The notes below the pieces were generated by a model. The model had not been told where the DNA came from and did not search any database. It saw only the letters and a list, made by a program, of their open reading frames with translations. A DNA stretch of 64,000 bases, taken from assembly GCF_000426365.1 (NCBI RefSeq), contig NZ_AUFF01000002.1:248001-312000 (forward strand), given 5' to 3'. This document shows, piece by piece, positions 6,952 through 41,583 of this stretch. Within the stretch, counting starts at the first letter, position 1; each line of letters opens with the position of its first letter. A program made the translations under genes and the position numbers. The stretch is from Arenimonas composti TR7-09 = DSM 18010. GTDB taxonomy: Bacteria > Pseudomonadota > Gammaproteobacteria > Xanthomonadales > Xanthomonadaceae.

Positions 6952-9141
6952 ATGAAGAAGATTCCGACCCCGGCGATCGTCCTGGGCCTGGCCCTGCTCG
7001 TATTCCTCGCCGGCTGCGCGACGACCTCGCCGCCGGTGATCCAGCGCGGCGCCGACCCGCTCGCCCGTGCCGATGCCGCGGTGGTGCTGCCGCCCCCGGC
7101 GGACGTCCCCGTCGACGCCGGCCCGGCCGATGCCGGCGCCGTGGCCGCGACGGGCGGTCCCGGCGCGGTGCTGGTGCCCGGCACCGGCCGCGTGATCAAC
7201 CAGGAACTCGCCGCGCAGCCGGCGCCCTCGCTCGACGGCGTCGGCGAGGCCACGTTCAACTTCGAGGGCCAGTCGCTGCACGCGGTGGTGAAGGCGATCC
7301 TCGGCGACCTGCTGCAGCAGAACTACGTGATCGCGCCGGGCGTGCAGGGCCAGGTGACGCTGGCGACGCCGCGGCCGGTCAACGGCGCCCAGGCCCTGAG
7401 CCTGCTGGAGAACGCGCTGGCCTGGAACAACGCGCGGATGATCTGGTCCGACGGCCGCTACAACATCGTCCCGGCCGACCAGGCGCTGCCGGGCAATCTG
7501 GCGCCGCGCACCGGCGGTCCGGCCAGCGCCCGCGGCTACGAGGTGCGGGCGGTGCCGCTGCAGTACATCTCGGCCAGCGAGATGAAGAAGATCCTGGAGC
7601 CCTACGCGCGGCCGCAGGCGATCGTCAGCGTCGACAACGCGCGCAACCTGATCGTGCTCGCCGGCACCCGCGCCGAGCTCACGAACTACCTGCGCACGGT
7701 CGAGATCTTCGACGTCGACTGGCTGGCCGGCATGTCGGTCGGCGTGTTCCCGCTGATGTCCGGCGAGGCCGAGGCAGTGGTCGACAGCCTCGAGGGCGTG
7801 TTCGGCGCCGAGGGCGCGACCCCGCTCGCCGGCATGGTCCGCTTCATGCCGCTGGCCGGGCAGAACGCGGTGATGGTGATCACCCCGCAGCCGCGCTACC
7901 TGCGCGAGATCGGCACGTGGATCGAGCGCCTGGACGCCGGTGGCGGCGAGGCGCCGCGGCTGTACACCTACGAAGTGCTGTACATGAAGGCGGTCGACCT
8001 GGCCGAGCAGCTGGGCCAGGTCTTCGGCGGGGGCAGTGGCGCCGGCGGTGGCCGCGTCGACGCCGGCGGTCCGCCGTCGATCATGCCGGGCCTGGATCCG
8101 GTGCGGATGCGCACGATCGACACCCCGGCGCCGGACGCCGCCGACCCCGGCGCCCGCGCCGAGAACGCCCGCCGCGAGGCCGCGGCCCGCGGTGGCGAGC
8201 GCGGCGGCGGCATCGCCCTGGGCAGTTCCGACGACGTTTCGATCAGCGCGGTCGAGGAATCCAATGCGCTGCTGGTGCGGGCGACGCCGGTGCAGTGGGA
8301 GTCGATCCGGCGCACGATCGAGCGCCTGGACACGATGCCGCTGCAGGTGCACATCGAGGCGCAGGTGGTCGAGGTCGTGCTGCGCGACCAGCTCAGCTAC
8401 GGCGTCAACTGGTTCTTCGAGAACGCGATCCCCGACGACTTCCCCGGCGCGAACGGTGTCGGCCGGGTCTGGGGCGACGTCGCCGGCGGTGTCGGCGACA
8501 CCGGCCTCGGCTGGAGCTTCCGCGGCCCGAACGCGGCGGCGGTGATCAGCGCGCTCGACCGCTATTCCGACATCCGCATCCTGTCGACGCCGTCGGTGGT
8601 GGTGCGCAACAACGCCGAGGCCCGCCTCGACGTCGGCGACAAGATCCCGGTCAACAGCACCAGCTTCAATCCGATCACCGGCGGCAACGACGGCACGTAC
8701 ACGAACGTGCAGTACCTCGACACCGGCGTGATCCTGACCGTGAAGCCGCGCATCAGCCGCGACGGCACCGTGTTCATGGAGATCGAGCAGGAAGTCAGCT
8801 CGCCCGGCGACACCCCGGACGCCAACGGCAACGTGCCGATCAGCAGCCGCTCGATGACCACCGAGGCGGCGATCAAGAGCGGCGAAACGGTGATGCTTGG
8901 CGGTCTGATCCAGGAGAACGGCCTGCGCGGCTCCGACGGTATTCCGGGGCTGTCGCGGCTGCCGGTGATCGGCGGCCTGTTCGGGCGCCAGATCAACAAC
9001 CGCACGCGCACCGAGGTGATCATCCTGGTGACGCCGACGGTGATCCGTGATCCGAACGAGGCCCGTCGCCTGACCGACGAGTACGGCGAGCGTTTTCGCG
9101 CCCTCGATCCGCTGCGCGCGCCGGACGCCGAACGCCGCTGA
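6952..9141 (+). CDS. gspD: type II secretion outer-membrane secretin GspD
   Basis: The 729-aa secretin forms the outer-membrane exit channel. It carries a lipoprotein signal (VFLAGC, Cys22, with Ala at +2, so outer-membrane sorting is expected). The N0 domain begins at about residue 95 (FNFEGQSLHAVVKAIL), followed by N1-N3 repeats with a Gly-rich insertion near 360-420 (GGGSGAGGGRVDAGG). The C-terminal secretin domain contains VPVIGGLFG and ends in the TEVIILVTPTVI beta strand. A lipidated secretin is known for XpsD. It is last of the gsp series, and the polysaccharide exporter wzm starts one base after its stop. Confidence 0.96.
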   Translation: MKKIPTPAIVLGLALLVFLAGCATTSPPVIQRGADPLARADAAVVLPPPADVPVDAGPADAGAVAATGGPGAVLVPGTGRVINQELAAQPAPSLDGVGEATFNFEGQSLHAVVKAILGDLLQQNYVIAPGVQGQVTLATPRPVNGAQALSLLENALAWNNARMIWSDGRYNIVPADQALPGNLAPRTGGPASARGYEVRAVPLQYISASEMKKILEPYARPQAIVSVDNARNLIVLAGTRAELTNYLRTVEIFDVDWLAGMSVGVFPLMSGEAEAVVDSLEGVFGAEGATPLAGMVRFMPLAGQNAVMVITPQPRYLREIGTWIERLDAGGGEAPRLYTYEVLYMKAVDLAEQLGQVFGGGSGAGGGRVDAGGPPSIMPGLDPVRMRTIDTPAPDAADPGARAENARREAAARGGERGGGIALGSSDDVSISAVEESNALLVRATPVQWESIRRTIERLDTMPLQVHIEAQVVEVVLRDQLSYGVNWFFENAIPDDFPGANGVGRVWGDVAGGVGDTGLGWSFRGPNAAAVISALDRYSDIRILSTPSVVVRNNAEARLDVGDKIPVNSTSFNPITGGNDGTYTNVQYLDTGVILTVKPRISRDGTVFMEIEQEVSSPGDTPDANGNVPISSRSMTTEAAIKSGETVMLGGLIQENGLRGSDGIPGLSRLPVIGGLFGRQINNRTRTEVIILVTPTVIRDPNEARRLTDEYGERFRALDPLRAPDAERR

Positions 9142-9142
9142 G

Positions 9143-9916
9143 ATGATCCCGGCGACCCGCGCCGTCTTCCGCGAGCTGTTGCGCCGCGAACTCGAGGAAC
9201 GCTGGCGCGGCAGCCTGCTCGGCGCCGCCTGGCTGCTGCTGCTGCCGCTGCTGCAGCTGGCGGTGCTGGCCTGGGTGTTCGGCAGCGTGCTGCCGGCGCG
9301 CGCGGCCGGCGGGGCGCTGCCTTACGCGGCTTTCCTCGCGCTCGGGCTGTGGCCATGGAACCTGCTCGCCAACGCCGCCAACCGCGGCGTCACCGCGCTC
9401 ACCGACAACGCCGCGCTGATCGGCAAGGTCGCGGTGCCGCACCGCCTCTACGTCGACAGCCGGGTCGCCGGTGCGGTGCTGCTCGAGATCGCCGGCTTCG
9501 TCGTCGTGCTGGTCGCGCTGCCGCTGTTCGGGGTGTCGCTGCAGTGGAGCGGGGCGCCGGCGCTGCTGCCGGCGCTGGCGACGGTGGCGCTGTGGGCGCT
9601 GGCGCTGGCGCGCACGCTGGCGGTGCTGCAGGTGTTCCTGCGCGACATCGGCGCGGTGATCGTCGCGCTGCTGTCGCTCGGTTTCTTCCTGGCGCCGGTG
9701 CTGTACGACCGCGCGGCGCTGCCGCCGGCGCTCGCCGACGGGCTGGTGCTGAATCCGGCGACGGTGCCGATCGAGGCGGTGCGCGCGGCGCTGCTGCCGG
9801 ACGCGGCCGTGAACTGGCCCGCGCTGGCCGGCAATGCGGCCGCGGCGCTGCTCGCGGTGTGGCTGTCGGCGCGTTTCCTGCGCGCGGCGCGCAGCCATCT
9901 GGAGGATTTCCTGTGA
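9143..9916 (+). CDS. wzm: polysaccharide ABC exporter permease (Wzm-like)
   Basis: This 257-aa protein has about six membrane helices and is an ABC-2 type permease of the O-antigen/teichoic-acid exporter family. Visible features are the N-terminal RELLRRELEERWRGSLLGAAW interface helix and the DIGAVIVALLSLGFFLAPVLYD segment typical of the TagG/Wzm family. It would flip undecaprenol-linked polysaccharide across the inner membrane with the ATPase encoded immediately downstream (GTGA overlap). The start ATG lies one base after the gspD stop, so it is probably co-transcribed with the xps operon. Confidence 0.9.
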   Translation: MIPATRAVFRELLRRELEERWRGSLLGAAWLLLLPLLQLAVLAWVFGSVLPARAAGGALPYAAFLALGLWPWNLLANAANRGVTALTDNAALIGKVAVPHRLYVDSRVAGAVLLEIAGFVVVLVALPLFGVSLQWSGAPALLPALATVALWALALARTLAVLQVFLRDIGAVIVALLSLGFFLAPVLYDRAALPPALADGLVLNPATVPIEAVRAALLPDAAVNWPALAGNAAAALLAVWLSARFLRAARSHLEDFL

Positions 9917-11954: not shown

Positions 11955-12878
11955 ATGTCCGTTTCCGTCCTGCCGTTCACCGGCGAGCGCTTCACGCCCG
12001 AGTGCGTGCGCGAGATCGCTCACGAGCACTGGCACCGCTACGCCTTCGCCCGGCCGCTGGCCGCCGGCCGCCGGGTGCTCGACGCGGCCTGCGGCGAGGG
12101 TTACGGCAGCGCCCTGCTGGCCGCGGCCGGGGCCAGGTCGGTCCTCGGCGTCGACCTCGACGGTGCCACCGTCGAACATGCCCGTGGCCGCTACGGCGAC
12201 GCCGCCAACCTGCGTTTCGAGGTCGCCGACGCCGCCGCGCTCGACGCGCTGCCGGACGCCGGTTTCGACCTGATCACCAGCTTCGAGACGCTCGAGCACC
12301 TGCAGGCCCAGGAAGCCCTGCTGGCGGGCTTCGCGCGGCTGCTGGCGCCGGGCGGGATCCTGCTGGTCTCGACACCGGACAAGCGCCAGTACAGCGACGC
12401 GACCGGGGAGAGCAATCCGCATCACGTGCGGGAGCTTTACCGGGAGGAGTTCGAGGCGCTGCTGGCGGACGCATTCCCGGCGCGGCGGCTGTATGCGCAG
12501 AAGCTGTTGTTCCAGTCGGTGCTGTGGGACCTCCCCCCCGCCCCCGTAGGAGCGCCTTCAGGCGCGATCCCAATGCGCATTGGGATCGCGCCTGAAGGCG
12601 CTCCTACGGGGGCGGGGGTCGGTGCACAGGCGCAGTTGGTGACGCATGACGGCGCGGCCTTCCATCCCGGCCTCGCCTACCCGCCGATGTACTACCTGGC
12701 GGCCTGCGCGCACGAAGCCGCCGCACTCGCGACGCTGCCGCCGCTGTCGCTGTACGGCGACGCCGCCGAGAGCGTCTACGCCGACTACCGCGACGAGGTC
12801 CGGCGCAACCGCGCCGCCGCCGCCCACATCGCCCACCTCGAGGCCGAACTGGCGCGCCTGCGCGGCGGCGCGCCGTGA
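11955..12878 (+). CDS. class I SAM-dependent methyltransferase carrying an in-frame palindromic repeat
   Basis: A 307-aa protein with a Rossmann-type methyltransferase domain at about residues 25-190. Motif I is VLDAACGEGYGSALL, the acidic motif II is VLGVDLDG, and ITSFETLEHL and LLAPGGILLVSTPD follow. Residues 194-221 are encoded by an 84-bp perfect palindrome (12535-12618) made of two head-to-head REP-like units, which keeps the frame because 84 is a multiple of three. Downstream the protein continues with a conserved-looking AFHPGLAYPPMYYLAAC and a C-terminal coiled coil (HIAHLEAELARL). In this cluster it may methylate the glycan, perhaps as the end cap recognised by Wzt (inference). The stop overlaps the next GT2 gene. 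Confidence 0.88.
   Translation: MSVSVLPFTGERFTPECVREIAHEHWHRYAFARPLAAGRRVLDAACGEGYGSALLAAAGARSVLGVDLDGATVEHARGRYGDAANLRFEVADAAALDALPDAGFDLITSFETLEHLQAQEALLAGFARLLAPGGILLVSTPDKRQYSDATGESNPHHVRELYREEFEALLADAFPARRLYAQKLLFQSVLWDLPPAPVGAPSGAIPMRIGIAPEGAPTGAGVGAQAQLVTHDGAAFHPGLAYPPMYYLAACAHEAAALATLPPLSLYGDAAESVYADYRDEVRRNRAAAAHIAHLEAELARLRGGAP
12535..12618. repeat. 84-bp perfect palindrome of two REP-like units inside a CDS
   Basis: Every base from 12535 to 12576 pairs with 12618 to 12577; the axis lies in ATGCGCAT. Each arm contains GTAGGAGCGCCTTCAGGCGC, the variant A REP unit also found at 1508-1530, preceded by a C-rich run. As DNA or RNA it can form one long stem, or two separate hairpins. It lies wholly inside the methyltransferase ORF without a frameshift or stop. 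Confidence 0.97.
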
Positions 12879-29168: not shown

Positions 29169-30419
29169 ATGGACGCGCCGCTGTTCCGCCCGCAGGTGCT
29201 GGAAGCGAAAGCCGAAACCGGGCTCGGCACGATCGCGCTCGGGCAGCCGCTGTCGCGCTGGCTGCTCGCCGCGTTCGCGCTGCTGGCGACGGCGGCGGTC
29301 GTGGTTTTCCTCGCCACCGCCGACTACAGCCGCCGCACCCGCGTCGCCGGCCAGCTGGTGCCGCGCGACGGCCTCGCCAGCGCGGTGTCGCCGGTCGCCG
29401 GCACCGTGCTGTCGCTGCGCGTGCGCGAAGGCGACGCCGTGCGCGCCGGCGACGTGCTCGCGATCGTCGCCACCAGCCGGGTCACCCGCCGCGACGGCGA
29501 CACCGCGCGCGTCGCCGAAACCGCCCTCGCCGAACGTCGCAGCGCGCTGGTCGCCGGTTACGCCGCGCAGCGCGCCCAGCTCGAGGCGCAGCGCGACGGC
29601 GTCACCGCCCAGCTGCAGGCGCTGGCACTCGAACTCGTCCAGGTCGACGCCGAACGCCTGACCCGCGCCCGCCAGCAGGAACTCGCCGAAGCGGCCCTCG
29701 ACCGCTATCGCGAGCTGCACGCGCGCCGCTTCGTCACCGCGCTCGAGCTGCAGCAGCGCGAGGCCGCGGCGCTGGAACAGCGCGCGCTCGCACAGGCGGC
29801 CGCACGCCAGCACGCGGCGCTGCGCCGGCAGCAGTCGCAGCTCACGCAGGCGCGCGACGAGATGCCGGCGCGGCTGGCGGCCCTTGACGCGGCGCAGCAG
29901 CGCGAACTCGCGGCGCTGGCGCAGGAAGCCGCCGACACCGCCGCCCGCGCCGAGGCGGTGATCGTCGCCGCCGCCGACGGCAGCATCGCCACGCGCCTGG
30001 TGGAACCGGGACAGGCGGTGCTGGCCGGGCAGCCGCTGCTGGCGCTGCTGCCGGCCGATGCGACCCTCGAGGCGCATCTGGCGGTGCCGAGCCGCGCGGT
30101 CGGCTTCGTGGCCCCCGGCGACCGCGTGCTGCTGCGTTACGACGCCTTCCCGTACCAGAAGTTCGGCCAGCATCCGGGCACCGTGCTGCGCGTCTCGCGC
30201 AGTGCTTCGGTGGGCGAGGGCGGCGATGGCGAGCCGCTGTACCGGGTAGTGGTGGCGCCGGCGCGGGCCGAGGTCGTCGCCTTCGGCCGCGGCGAACCGC
30301 TGCGCCCCGGCATGCGACTCGAAGCCGACCTGCTCGGCGAGCGCCGGCGCCTCTGGGAATGGCTGCTCGAACCGCTGCAGGCGCTCGACGGTGCCGTGCG
30401 CGAGCACGGGCGGGGCTGA
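29169..30419 (+). CDS. HlyD-family membrane-fusion protein for bacteriocin-type export
   Basis: A 416-aa periplasmic adaptor. One membrane helix lies at about residues 32-52, followed by a lipoyl/beta-barrel half (VSPVAGTVLSLRVREGDAVRAGD), a long coiled-coil hairpin (about 110-260, Ala/Gln/Arg-rich) and the second half. The late motif RYDAFPYQKFGQHPGTVLRVSRSA is characteristic of CvaA/RaxA-type adaptors working with C39-peptidase ABC exporters. It should link the inner-membrane exporter encoded 1 bp downstream to a TolC-type channel encoded elsewhere. The pair lies between ribB and ribH. ATG 29169 gives MDAPLFRPQVLEAK, a normal start for this family. Confidence 0.93.
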   Translation: MDAPLFRPQVLEAKAETGLGTIALGQPLSRWLLAAFALLATAAVVVFLATADYSRRTRVAGQLVPRDGLASAVSPVAGTVLSLRVREGDAVRAGDVLAIVATSRVTRRDGDTARVAETALAERRSALVAGYAAQRAQLEAQRDGVTAQLQALALELVQVDAERLTRARQQELAEAALDRYRELHARRFVTALELQQREAAALEQRALAQAAARQHAALRRQQSQLTQARDEMPARLAALDAAQQRELAALAQEAADTAARAEAVIVAAADGSIATRLVEPGQAVLAGQPLLALLPADATLEAHLAVPSRAVGFVAPGDRVLLRYDAFPYQKFGQHPGTVLRVSRSASVGEGGDGEPLYRVVVAPARAEVVAFGRGEPLRPGMRLEADLLGERRRLWEWLLEPLQALDGAVREHGRG

Positions 30420-30420
30420 C

Positions 30421-32550
30421 GTGGAAGCGATCCGGCAATCCGCGGTCGGCGAATGCGGCCTGGCCTGCCTGGCGATGGTCGCGGAACACCATGGCCACCG
30501 CATCGGCCTGCCGGCGCTGCGCCAGCGCTTCCCGCTGTCGCTGAAAGGCGCCTCGCTGGCGCGGCTGGTGGCGATCGCCGGCGCCCTCGGGCTGCAGGCG
30601 CGGGCGCTGCGGCTCGAGCCGGCGCAGCTGCGCGAGCTGAAGCTGCCATGCGTGCTGCACTGGAACCTCGACCATTACGTCGTGCTCGAGAAGGTCGGGC
30701 GGCGGGGGCTGCGCATCCTCGATCCGGCGCTCGGGCGCCGGCACGTGGATGCCGACGAAGTCGCGCGCCGCTTCACCGGCGTCGCGCTCGAACTCACGCC
30801 GGCCGCCGCCTTCGCGCCGCGCGCCGCGCCGCCGCCGCTGCGCCTGCGCCAGCTGCTCGGCCGCGTCGCCGGCGGCCTGCGCGCGCTCGGCCTGCTGCTG
30901 GCGCTGTCGCTGGCGCTGCAGGTGTTCGTTCTGCTGGCGCCGATGCAGCTGCAGTGGATCGTCGACCACGCCCTGGTCGCCGCCGACCGCGAACTGCTGG
31001 CGGTGATCGCGCTCGGTTTCGCGCTGCTGCTGGCGCTGCAGGTCGGCGTCGGCCTGTTGCGCGGCTGGACCCTGGTCGCGCTGGCGGCGGCGCTGGGCCG
31101 GCAGTGGACCGGCAACGTGCTCGCGCATGCGCTGCGGCTGCCGCTCGACTTCTTCCAGAAACGCCATCTCGGTGACGTCGTGTCGCGGCTCGGCGCGGTG
31201 CAGGCGATCCAGCGCACGCTCACCACCGGCTTCGTCGAGGCACTCGTGGACGGCGTGCTGGCCGTGGCGACGGCGACGATGATGCTGCTCTACAGCCCGA
31301 AACTCGCGGCGATAGGCTTCCTCGCCGTCGCGCTCTACCTGGCGGCGCGGATGACGGCCTTCCCGCACCTGCGCGAGGCCAACGAACGCCAGCTCGAGGC
31401 GGCGGCGAGCCAGCAGGGCCACCTGCTCGAATCGCTGCGCGGCATCCAGAGCCTGAAGGTCGCCGGCCAGGAGCCGGCACGCGCGGCGCAGTACCGCAGC
31501 CTGGTCGTCGACACCCTCAACCGCGAACTGCGGCTGGCGACCTTCGGGCTCGGCTTCTCCTCCGGCCAGCAGCTGCTGTTCGGCGGCGAACGCGTGCTGG
31601 TGATCTGGCTCGGCGCCGGCCTGGTGCTCGACGGCGGCTTCTCGGTCGGCATGCTGCTCGCGTACCTGGCGTGGAAGGACCAGTTCGCGGCGCGCACCGC
31701 GACCCTGGTCGACCGCCTGGTGGAACTGCGCATGCTGCGCCTGCACGGCGAGCGCCTGGCCGACATCGTGCTCGCGGAACCCGAGCACGACCCGGCGTCG
31801 GATTTCGAGCAGGCGCCGGCGTCGCTGCGCATCGAGGTGCGGGAGCTCGGCTTCCGCTACGCCGACGGCGAACCCTGGGTGCTGCGCGGCTGCAGCTTCC
31901 ATGTCGACGAGGGCGAGACGGTGGCGATCGTCGGTGCCTCCGGTGGCGGCAAGACGACGCTGCTGAAGCTCGTGCTCGGCCTGCTGTCGCCGGAGGAGGG
32001 GCGGGTCCTGGTCGGCGGCCGCGACCTGCGCCGGCTGGGCGCCCGCAACTTCCGCGCCCAGGTCGGCGTGGTGATGCAGGACGACCAGCTGTTCGCCGGT
32101 TCGATCGCCGACAACATCGCCCTCGGCGACGACCGCGTCGACATGGTCCGGGTCGAGGCCGCTGCCCGCGCCGCCGCGGTGCACGACGAGATCGCGGCGA
32201 TGCCGATGGGCTACCACAGCCTGATCGGCGACATGGGCAGCGCCCTCAGCGGCGGCCAGAAGCAGCGGGTGATCCTGGCGCGGGCGCTGTACCGGCAGCC
32301 GCGGCTGCTGGTGCTCGACGAGGCCACCAGCCACCTCGACGTCGGCAACGAGCAGCGGGTCAACGCGGCGATCCGGCAGCTGCGGATCGGCAAGCTGATC
32401 GTCGCCCACCGCCCGGAAACCATCGCCGCCGCCGACCGGGTGCTGGTGCTGCACGGCGGCCGGATCGTGCAGGAAGCCCGGCCCGGGCTGCCGCCGGGGC
32501 CGCCGGCCCGCGCCGCCCCGGAAGCCGCGAGCCCGGTCCCCACGGGGTAA
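30421..32550 (+). CDS. C39-peptidase ABC exporter for double-glycine-leader peptides
   Basis: A 709-aa bacteriocin-type exporter in three parts. The N-terminal C39 peptidase covers about residues 1-130, with Cys12 in [10 protein letters not shown], His85 in WNLDHYVVL and Asp101 in ILDPALG. Six membrane helices span about 145-430. The ATPase has Walker [10 protein letters not shown], signature ALSGGQKQR and Walker [13 protein letters not shown]. All three catalytic residues are present, so it should cut leaders after Gly-Gly and export the core. The GTG at 30421 follows the HlyD stop by 1 bp. A longer reading from 30391 would overlap hlyD. The obvious substrate is the peptide at 35362. Confidence 0.95.
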
Positions 32551-34558: not shown

Positions 34559-35059
34559 ATGGCGCTGATGCCGACGGGGACGCGGCGGAAGCTGATGAGG
34601 CATCCGCTGGGCTGGATCGCCGCCGGGTTCGGGGCGGGGTTTTCGCCGTGGGCGCCGGGGACGGTCGGCAGTCTCGCGGCGCTCGTTCCGTGGTGGTTCC
34701 TGCTGCGCGACCTGTCGCTGCCGGTGTATCTGGCGGTGCTGGTGGCGACGTTCGTCCTCGGCTGCTGGGCGGCGCACTGGACGATCCGCAGGACCGGCAT
34801 CGAGGACCCGTCGGTCGTCGTCTGGGACGAATACGTCGGCATGTGGATCGCGCTGATCCTGCTGCCCGCCGGCTGGCCCTGGGTGGTCGCGGCGTTCGCG
34901 CTGTTCCGGCTGTTCGACATCTGGAAGCCGTGGCCGGTGAGCTGGGCCGATTCGAAGCTGCACGGCGGCTTCGGCGCGATGCTCGACGACGCCTTCGCCG
35001 GCCTCTGGGCGCTGGCCCTGCTGCAACTCGGCGCCTGGCTCCTCTCCCGCTTCTCGTAG
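34559..35059 (+). CDS. pgpA: phosphatidylglycerophosphatase A
   Basis: A 166-aa membrane phosphatase converting phosphatidylglycerophosphate to phosphatidylglycerol. PF04608 family motifs are GFGAGFSPWAPGTVGSLAAL, VVWDEYVGMWIAL, FRLFDIWKPWPVSWADSKLHGGFGAMLDDAFAGL. About four membrane helices are visible. ATG 34559 was taken; ATG 34568 (MPTGTRRKLM) is equally possible. It closes the nusB-thiL-pgpA run, which is a standard order, and is followed by a block of repeats. Confidence 0.95.
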   Translation: MALMPTGTRRKLMRHPLGWIAAGFGAGFSPWAPGTVGSLAALVPWWFLLRDLSLPVYLAVLVATFVLGCWAAHWTIRRTGIEDPSVVVWDEYVGMWIALILLPAGWPWVVAAFALFRLFDIWKPWPVSWADSKLHGGFGAMLDDAFAGLWALALLQLGAWLLSRFS

Positions 35060-35235
35060 GAGCGGCTTCAGCCCCCCCGCTTCTTGTGGGAGCGGCTTCA
35101 GCCGCGATGAGCGAGAAACGAGGAACGAGAAACGAGGGACGAGGAACGAGGAACGAGGAACGAGTGAGGGCCCGCGCCGGGGCGCGGGCGCGCTTCGCGC
35201 GAGTGGGGAGGGATCGCGGCTGAAGCCGCTCCTAC
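35056..35235. repeat. composite repeat block: REP units plus AACGAGN heptads
   Basis: Two direct REP-like units (35056-35073, truncated; 35086-35108) open the block. They are followed by about eight AACGAGN heptads (35111-35166), a GC-rich hairpin (GGGCCCGCGCC...GGCGCGGGC, then GCGCGCTTCGCGCG) and an inverted REP unit at 35213-35235. It overlaps the pgpA stop region. The same hairpin core recurs, inverted, at 38735-38770. Confidence 0.88.
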
Positions 35236-35361: not shown

Positions 35362-35583
35362 ATGCGTGAACTCACCCAGATGGAACTGGAGATGGTGGAG
35401 GGCGGCAATGCGGCGCTGGTGCCGGTGATCATCGGAATCATCGTGCTCGCCGGCGTGGCGGTGGCCGCGTACGCGGTGGCGAACGAATGCGACGTCAGCT
35501 TCGAGGTCGGCGTCGACGGCATGTCGTTCGAGATCGACTGCAGCGGCAACCCCGACCCCACCGCCACCTGCCCCGGCGGCTGA
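35362..35583 (+). CDS. double-glycine-leader peptide, bacteriocin-like precursor
   Basis: A 73-aa precursor. The leader MRELTQMELEMVEGG fits the double-glycine consensus exactly: Leu -12, Thr -11, Glu -8, Leu -7, Val -4, Gly-Gly -2/-1. The 58-residue core has a hydrophobic, Gly/Ala-rich segment (about residues 17-40) with GxxxG-like spacing and then an acidic tail with Cys43, Cys60 and Cys70. The parts CDVSFEV and MSFEIDC are near mirror images. It has a good ribosome binding site (AGGGAG, 7 bp spacing). The C39 exporter at 30421 is the probable processing and export machine. It could be a class II-type bacteriocin, a toxin or a signal. Confidence 0.85.
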   Translation: MRELTQMELEMVEGGNAALVPVIIGIIVLAGVAVAAYAVANECDVSFEVGVDGMSFEIDCSGNPDPTATCPGG

Positions 35584-35637
35584 GCCGCCCTGGCGTCGGC
35601 TGCGTCCGCGCAGCCGGCGCCCACCGGAGGAAAGCCC

Positions 35638-36156
35638 ATGCGTCGTCTTCTCCGACATCCTGAAACCGCCGGTCTGCTGCTCGGCCTGTCCGACGTGATT
35701 TTCCGCGCGCTCGCCGCGGCGACGTGGCCACCGTCCGGCGGCCGCCTGTTCGGACGCTTCTTCCTCGCAAACGTGCACCACCGTGTCGAGAAGCGCGCGT
35801 TTGGCCTCGACAGTCTCGAGTGGTTCGGCATCGCCGCGGTCGTGGTGGTACTGATGTACGGCGGCGTGCGCCTGTGCAGCCACGTCGCCCATCGCGATTA
35901 CGCCGGCTACCGGCTCGCGCGCTTCGCGGTCGCGGCGATGGCTGGCGTGCTGATGCTGAACACCGCCGAGGCCCTGCTCACCGGCAAGGTCACCGACTGG
36001 TTCGGGCTGGTTCATGGCAACGGCGGAAAGGCGCTCAACCTGGGCGACCTCGTTGCCTGGACGGCCGCGGTACTGGTGCCGGGCGGAATCTTCGCCGGAG
36101 TGATCGGCTACCTGCGCGACCCCGCGAAGTACGTGCCTGGGGCTCAGCCTGGCTGA
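35638..36156 (+). CDS. signal peptidase II (LspA)-like membrane protein linked to the double-glycine peptide
   Basis: A 172-aa protein with about four membrane helices. The order of conserved elements follows LspA: D19-x3-R23 in the first helix, Asn45 in the loop where LspA has NxGxAF, then N108-x2-E111 before G116-K-V-T-D120 and N134-L-G-D137. Asp120 and Asp137 occupy the positions of the catalytic aspartates. The Arg after the Asp/Glu of the third motif is replaced by Ala112, and overall sequence is divergent, so it is unlikely to be the housekeeping enzyme. It lies 54 bp after the peptide gene and may process, export or neutralise it (inference). The stop overlaps the convergent UDG gene by 13 bp. 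Confidence 0.7.
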   Translation: MRRLLRHPETAGLLLGLSDVIFRALAAATWPPSGGRLFGRFFLANVHHRVEKRAFGLDSLEWFGIAAVVVVLMYGGVRLCSHVAHRDYAGYRLARFAVAAMAGVLMLNTAEALLTGKVTDWFGLVHGNGGKALNLGDLVAWTAAVLVPGGIFAGVIGYLRDPAKYVPGAQPG

Positions 36157-38689: not shown

Positions 38690-38818
38690 GAAACGAGTAA
38701 CGAGCCGTAGGAGCGGCTTCAGCCGCGATCACTCTCACTCGCGTAAAGCGCGCCCGCGCCAAGGCGCGGCCTCCCACTCGTTCCTCGTTCCTCGCTTCTC
38801 GCTCCTGTTCCCCGTTCC
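38690..38818. repeat. composite repeat: heptad arms, REP unit and GC-rich hairpin
   Basis: The short left arm (38690-38706, AACGAGN type) is followed by a REP unit (38707-38729). A GC-rich core comes next (38735-38770), matching the one at 35167-35204 in reverse orientation. The right arm of CTCGTTN/CTCGCTN heptads is at 38775-38818. It occupies the yraN-lpoA gap up to the lpoA stop. Confidence 0.85.
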
Positions 38819-41479: not shown

Positions 41480-41583
41480 GTAGGAGCGGCTTCAGCCGCG
41501 ATGCTTCCCGCTTTCGCGCGCAGCGCGAAAAGCATCGCGGCTGAAGCCGCTCCTACAGGCATCGCGGCTGAAGCCGCTCCTAC
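41480..41583. repeat. cluster of three REP-like units (variant B)
   Basis: One unit is direct (41480-41502) and two are inverted (41534-41556 and 41561-41583). The first two enclose a small hairpin (CTTTCGCGCGCAGCGCGAAAAG). The cluster ends about 27 bp before the RNase P RNA and may form a strong stem-loop between rsmI and rnpB. Confidence 0.92.

Follow-up and report, generated by a model that had tools for sequence, protein, structure and literature searches.

A divergent homologue of lipoprotein signal peptidase linked to a double-glycine peptide in Arenimonas is a putative immunity protein of a class-II-microcin-like locus

The window analysed here, a stretch of 64,000 nucleotides from the soil/water bacterium Arenimonas composti, contains a small open reading frame in which a preliminary description, made from the letters of the DNA, had recognised the elements of lipoprotein signal peptidase (LspA, signal peptidase II), next to a gene encoding a peptide with a membrane-helix core. 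The locus raises the question of what a divergent signal peptidase does at such a site: whether it is an LspA at all, whether it is the housekeeping enzyme of the cell or a specialised paralogue, and whether it cleaves the neighbouring peptide or guards the producer against it. The features on which the analysis turns are as follows.

29169..30419, + strand: HlyD-type membrane fusion protein (export adaptor), 416 aa; PF13437, E 2.6e-19
30391..32550, + strand: C39-peptidase ABC exporter, 719 aa; PF03412 at 112.7 bits, PF00664 and PF00005 above cut-off
35362..35583, + strand: double-glycine precursor peptide, 73 aa, with leader MRELTQMELEMVEGG and a 58-aa core; TIGR03949
35592..35621, + strand: intergenic RNA hairpin with a 13-bp stem, following the peptide stop and preceding the ribosome-binding site of the LspA-like gene
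35638..36156, + strand: LspA-like ORF, a degenerate LspA homologue of 172 aa with four membrane helices and a beta-cradle; putative immunity protein

The LspA-like ORF opens with an ATG behind a ribosome-binding site (GGAGG at 35626-35630). By itself the 172-aa protein matched no Pfam or NCBIfam model, PF01252 and TIGR00077 included, and as a single query it retrieved nothing from the genome collection; an alignment of four members found three Arenimonas species. Across 297-397 genomes of the family and order, eight LspA-like proteins were recovered from seven genomes: A. composti (G000, the window genome), A. terrae (G103), A. daejeonensis (G592), A. fontis (G076, with two in tandem) and three genomes of a second genus (G272, G282 and G087). 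PF01252 matches seven of the eight, the window protein being the exception, with a best value of 5.9e-8 and four members above the Pfam cut-off, and TIGR00077 matches five. Comparison of the eight members with ten housekeeping LspA proteins by hhalign gave an E-value of 3.1e-10 at a probability of 96.7%, and a profile built from seven members, with no LspA in it, retrieved genuine LspA from other genomes over nearly its full length (E about 1e-7). In a phylogenetic tree the eight proteins form one group with support of 100/100 on a long branch.

The predicted structure leads to the same relatives. An AlphaFold model made with LspA rows in the alignment reached a pLDDT of 90.5 and matched the PDB entry 5dir_C with a Z of 13.0 (rmsd 2.9 over 139 residues); with LspA sequences left out, a second model of lower confidence (pLDDT 78.8) showed the same fold (Z 12.3). 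For both models the outstanding PDB matches were LspA only, from P. aeruginosa and S. aureus (Z 11.4-13.0 overall, 12-13 for the first model and 11-12 for the second), with the next unrelated structure at 6.6, and a viral structure library searched with the model gave no significant match. The modelled secondary structure runs in LspA order (helix 8-29, strands 35-48, helices 59-84 and 89-115, strands 118-133, helix 135-160), and the four-helix and beta-cradle fold and the order of the sequence boxes are those of LspA (MEROPS A8, PF01252; structures 5DIR, 6RYO and 6RYP). The Abi/CAAX (CPBP) proteases, which are of the metalloprotease type, differ in both respects: their EExxxR and FxxxH motifs are absent from the window protein, which has no EE pair, and its fold is that of LspA. 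Chance occurrence of the motifs in a small membrane protein is excluded by the profile-profile score, the family-level Pfam matches and the fold. The 172-aa ORF thus encodes a genuine, though divergent, LspA homologue, as the preliminary description had held from the order of the motifs; the profile-profile search and the superposition on LspA that it had suggested as checks both bear it out, and the mismatch of fold that would have spoken against it did not appear.

That the LspA-like protein is simply the housekeeping enzyme can be rejected. The canonical lspA of the window genome lies between ileS and ispH (G000:C4:64436-64861), with the motifs DQWTK, GNLIDRV, VVDF and FNVAD intact, and a separate canonical lspA was found in all seven genomes carrying the LspA-like gene, which excludes that reading in each of them. 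The possibility, raised in the preliminary description, that the genome holds no other lspA was thus disposed of near ileS, where a second gene had been looked for. In contrast to lspA, the LspA-like gene lies away from ileS and is linked to a double-glycine peptide.

The state of the active site separates the family further from its ancestor. S. aureus LspA has 14 conserved residues and a catalytic dyad, D118/D136; the R110A and D118N enzymes show 0% activity and D136N shows none, and R110K keeps 50% (PMC6952399). In the window protein D19-x3-R23 corresponds to LspA D-Q-x-T/S-K and N108-x2-E111 to the box GN-x-x-D-R, and a profile alignment places V118-T119-D120 on the Asp of V-x-D-F and N134-L-G-D137 on that of FN-x-A-D, so that the V-x-D and N-x-(A/G)-D of the dyad are shared with LspA. 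The catalytic aspartates noticed at the outset are indeed retained in the window protein (D120 and D137), but the first is not conserved across the family: it is Asp in five of the eight members, Asn in those of A. terrae and A. daejeonensis, and Glu in the second A. fontis copy. The second, D137, is invariant in all eight, as are the Glu at the place of D109 (E111) and the equivalent of N133 (N134). The loss of the conserved Arg had also been read correctly, Ala occupying in the window protein the place of the Arg of GN-x-x-D-R; the equivalent of R110 is lost in seven of the eight members and is Lys in the eighth (G282). Additional changes at S. aureus positions in the window protein are Glu for D109, Leu for F132 and Gly for A135. 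Family-wide, box C of LspA, GN-x-x-D-R, has become N-x-x-E-(A/S/W/T/K/Y), and the Phe and Ala of the Phe-Asn-x-Ala-Asp box are gone in most members. The family has thus preserved the fold and some of the pocket, yet accepts replacements that should destroy peptidase activity. If Asn inactivates these proteins as it does LspA, proteolysis cannot be the function that the family has in common. A. fontis carries two tandem LspA-like genes behind one peptide gene (G076:C27:187375-188447); the first copy keeps the catalytic Asp (VTD), and the second reads VTE, with Asp and Arg at the Asn positions.

The partner of the LspA-like gene is a double-glycine precursor whose core, in the window, combines a membrane helix (Kyte-Doolittle 2.8 over 19 residues) with a Cys-x16-Cys segment. 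This peptide scores 24.7 bits against TIGR03949 (cut-off 21.5), the model of class IIb bacteriocins of the lactobin A/cerein 7B family, and it gives a weak match to the microcin V model; TIGR03949 matches five of the six family peptides. At the six intact peptide loci the products are 63-73 aa long, with a leader of the form MREL...E...V.GG with invariant residues and a hydrophobic stretch of Kyte-Doolittle 2.5-2.8. Two invariant Cys always stand 17 positions apart, and the residues between them alternate polar and hydrophobic, as in C-S-G-S-V-E-V-S-x-E-x-I-K-V-E-V-T-C. At its end the helix reaches an invariant Cys, close to where the membrane edge is predicted to lie. A lipobox, [LVI][ASTVI][GAS]C, is absent before the first invariant Cys, where the preceding residues are VANE, VSQG, IYKE, VSQG, AYKG and IAKD.

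Between the peptide stop and the LspA-like gene lie 54 bases, and the RNA hairpin encoded there recurs at all six loci with an intact peptide gene, with stems of about 11-13 bp that differ in sequence; the intergenic stretches of the six intact pairs have folding energies of -23 to -33 kcal/mol. The hairpin may protect the end of the peptide mRNA and allow more peptide than LspA-like protein to be made. Rfam families and promoter or terminator consensus sequences were sought in the locus, and none was found.

Genes for export of the peptide are found in the same window. The HlyD-type protein scores 131 bits against TIGR01843 (type_I_hlyD), below the cut-off of that model. The C39 exporter is the sole C39 protein found in the window genome, and its protease site can be read as Cys (GECGLAC), His (NLDHYVVL) and Asp (ILDP); it would cut the double-glycine leader and export the peptide. 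Two PF02321 proteins of the genome are candidates for the TolC-type outer membrane channel. A C39 exporter is present in all seven genomes with the LspA-like gene. A. terrae has the genes in unbroken order, hlyD - peptide - LspA-like - C39 exporter, in a cluster flanked by pgpA at one end and by glycolate-oxidase and uracil-DNA-glycosylase genes at the other. The remaining three Arenimonas genomes carry the peptide and LspA-like genes at that same site, with the exporter genes not adjacent but within about 10 kb, and in the second genus (g11) the pair lies near a malic-enzyme-like gene, the exporter being on other contigs or far away. The window also contains ten copies of a REP-like element, GTAGGAGCGGCTTCAGCCGCGA (with a variant carrying GCCTTCAGGC), often in inverted pairs and against a chance expectation of 0; copies lie at 1510-1531, 12546-12607, 35056-35235, 38707-38728 and 41480-41583, some of them between pgpA and the peptide gene.

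A double-glycine peptide gene stands directly upstream of the LspA-like gene at all seven loci, as remnants only in G087. Four of 27 Arenimonas genomes have the peptide (E <=7e-9), and these are also the four with the LspA-like protein; neither was found in the other 23. C39 exporters occur in ten of these 27, six of which have the exporter but neither peptide nor LspA-like protein; the LspA-like protein therefore tracks the peptide and not export in general. Under random placement a four-genome match would arise once in 17,550, a figure that ignores relatedness and is more extreme than the true one. A specialised LspA paralogue tied to a neighbouring membrane-helix peptide, as first proposed, is what the conserved pairing at all seven loci shows. 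In G087 the LspA-like ORF is intact and the upstream peptide survives as frameshifted, leaderless remnants in two frames. Within 4 kb of this orphan LspA-like gene there are further double-glycine peptide-like ORFs (L057 10807-11085, MRSLKVQEIHSVAGG..., and near 12132 on the - strand, MRTLSSVELEHVGGG...), and between them an ORF (8984-9886) for a membrane protein that by eye resembles the CPBP (CAAX protease) family.

The LspA-like gene diverges fast and under constraint. Between A. terrae and A. daejeonensis the LspA-like proteins are 62% identical and the housekeeping LspA proteins 88%, and a dN/dS of about 0.27 for the LspA-like gene indicates purifying selection. The synonymous divergence between the same two species is about 1.0 for the LspA-like gene, 0.35, three times less, for the housekeeping lspA, and 0.43 for the peptide gene; the higher value of the LspA-like gene hints at replacement by transfer or recombination.

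In the samples drawn, the peptide/LspA-like pair is confined to Arenimonas and one related genus. Order-level profile matches read in other families were all canonical LspA, and a peptide match in another family (G981) was set aside, as it covered leader and helix only and had no LspA-like neighbour. A class-level sample of 350 genomes contained a second PF01252 match in 26; of the twelve such extra loci read, most hold recognisable LspA-sized paralogues with the DR box preserved, or else LspA domains within long frames, and none was adjoined by a convincing double-glycine peptide. Several gammaproteobacterial families have long frames of about 570-1,070 aa that match PF01252 close to their N-terminus (G996:C27:3084-3500, L110; G872:C31, L108; G920:C6, L109; and G809, G901, G717 and G749). 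The three of these that were read (L108-L110) contain LspA-like domains, two with a degenerate GN-x-x-DR box, apparently fused to another part. In three genomes, extra copies of LspA (L099 2583-3125, L100 2609-3178 and L101 2652-3224) carry CVGCDQ or GVGCDQ, in which a lipobox-like Cys immediately precedes the conserved Asp of box A, such that the peptidase might itself resemble a lipoprotein precursor.

We propose, with a probability of roughly 0.6, that the locus is a class-II-microcin-like system in which the LspA-like protein is the immunity protein and binds the peptide without cleaving it. A class II microcin system has, besides its double-glycine precursor, the parts for export (C39 exporter, HlyD-type adaptor and TolC) and a small immunity protein encoded close by; the immunity proteins are 51-216 aa long, usually reside in the inner membrane and are encoded beside the microcin (PMC9746304). 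The LspA-like protein has this size, place and membrane character, with 172 aa, four helices and a position 54 bases downstream of the peptide. By this model the C39 exporter would cut the leader after the double glycine and, with the HlyD adaptor and a TolC-type channel, export a peptide of 48-58 aa, which we infer to be antibacterial; it would combine a single membrane helix with a Cys-x16-Cys hairpin whose two Cys could be joined in a disulfide. The natural task of LspA is to hold a membrane helix, that of a signal peptide. In LspA the helix lies in the pocket and the residues that follow it in the substrate are proposed to rest on the beta-cradle (PMC6952399). Descended from such a peptidase, the LspA-like protein retains that fold together with some polar residues of the pocket (N134, D137 and E111), has dropped residues needed for cleavage and, in the inner membrane of the producer, would capture the helix and hairpin of the incoming peptide and block its action. 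On the alignment, conservation of N134, D137 and E111 together with loss of the R110 equivalent and variation at D120 fits a pocket used for binding; rapid divergence under purifying selection, and the persistence of the gene next to a decayed peptide gene, are in keeping with a role in immunity. G087, with its intact LspA-like gene and broken peptide, is as expected of an immunity gene that has outlived its toxin. Immunity, one of the two roles raised in the preliminary description, is the best supported.

The other role raised there, the pairing of an intramembrane protease with its substrate, is less well supported for the family, with the Arg lost in seven of eight members and the first Asp in three, and is possible for the members with an intact dyad. 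Active cleavage by the LspA-like protein could be a second maturation step after the double-glycine cut, or immunity by destruction. Both dyad Asp, along with V118 and N134, are kept in five of the eight members, the window protein among them, D137 is unchanged throughout the family, the peptide resembles LspA substrates in having a membrane helix, and peptide processing is known for some CAAX proteases of bacteriocin clusters (PMC9298176). Against these stand the loss, in seven members, of an Arg whose Ala mutant is inactive, the Asn, Asn and Glu that replace the first Asp in three members still beside a peptide (D118N having 0% activity), and the want of a lipobox before the invariant Cys; we consider a working protease rather unlikely.

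Another reading makes the peptide a prolipoprotein mimic that jams the LspA of competitors, and the degenerate LspA a decoy that mops up the peptide in the producer, the literal sense of the immunity decoy raised in the preliminary description. The two natural inhibitors of LspA that are known each have lspA copies in the gene cluster that makes them (PMC8689077, PMC9943842), the end of the peptide helix at the invariant Cys corresponds to where a lipobox Cys sits, near the membrane edge, and bacteriocins with an intramembrane protease as receptor exist (RseP; PMC8260761). The peptides have no lipobox, however, and their two Cys are more simply taken as a disulfide; furthermore, several residues around the LspA inhibitors are changed in the LspA-like protein, whereas GlobF keeps all 14 conserved ones. 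We regard such a decoy as unlikely, though if it were real it would be the first peptide microcin directed against lipoprotein maturation, with a dead copy of the target as immunity. It is very improbable that the LspA-like protein has nothing to do with immunity, being a leftover lspA duplicate or a chaperone or export helper of the peptide. The A. terrae gene does lie between the peptide and exporter genes, where an export helper could sit, but purifying selection (dN/dS about 0.27), the conservation of the pair in two genera with different surroundings, and the retention of the gene where the peptide is broken all argue otherwise; in G087 an export helper is unlikely because the broken peptide leaves no client.

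To our knowledge, none of the verified class II microcin immunity proteins is obviously similar to LspA. These proteins show no obvious similarity to one another (PMC9746304), and their mechanisms are for that reason hard to infer. The literature searched gave no link between LspA and double-glycine bacteriocins. Antibiotic clusters with LspA paralogues have been described, and so have bacteriocin immunity proteins from intramembrane-protease families (Abi/CAAX; PMC9298176); in that literature we found no degenerate LspA linked to a ribosomal peptide of the double-glycine type. Even if the peptide spares LspA, a pseudo-peptidase serving as an immunity protein would, as far as we have found, be a new use of the fold.

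Among known systems, the class II microcins (microcin V, with CvaA/CvaB/TolC and Cvi) share with this locus the short M-R-x-L... double-glycine leader, the C39 exporter, the HlyD adaptor and a small inner-membrane protein beside the peptide, here predicted; the peptide core differs in not being that of a known microcin. With the Abi/CAAX (CPBP) systems the likeness is that of an intramembrane-protease fold encoded in bacteriocin loci, where it serves immunity (PMC9298176), the role proposed here. Enterocin K1 and EJ97 likewise pair a small bacteriocin with an intramembrane protease, but RseP is there the receptor on the target cell (PMC8260761), and no degenerate copy serves as immunity. The nearest parallel in the peptidase itself is offered by lspA3 and lspA4 of the myxovirescin cluster and globF of the globomycin cluster (PMC8689077, PMC9943842), which are, like the gene described here, LspA paralogues in clusters for antibacterial compounds, with a proposed part in self-resistance. 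The M. xanthus lspA3 and lspA4 have been shown to keep LspA activity, and GlobF keeps all 14 conserved residues (PMC9943842), whereas the Arenimonas paralogue is degenerate; and where myxovirescin and globomycin are non-ribosomal/polyketide compounds, the partner here is a ribosomal peptide.
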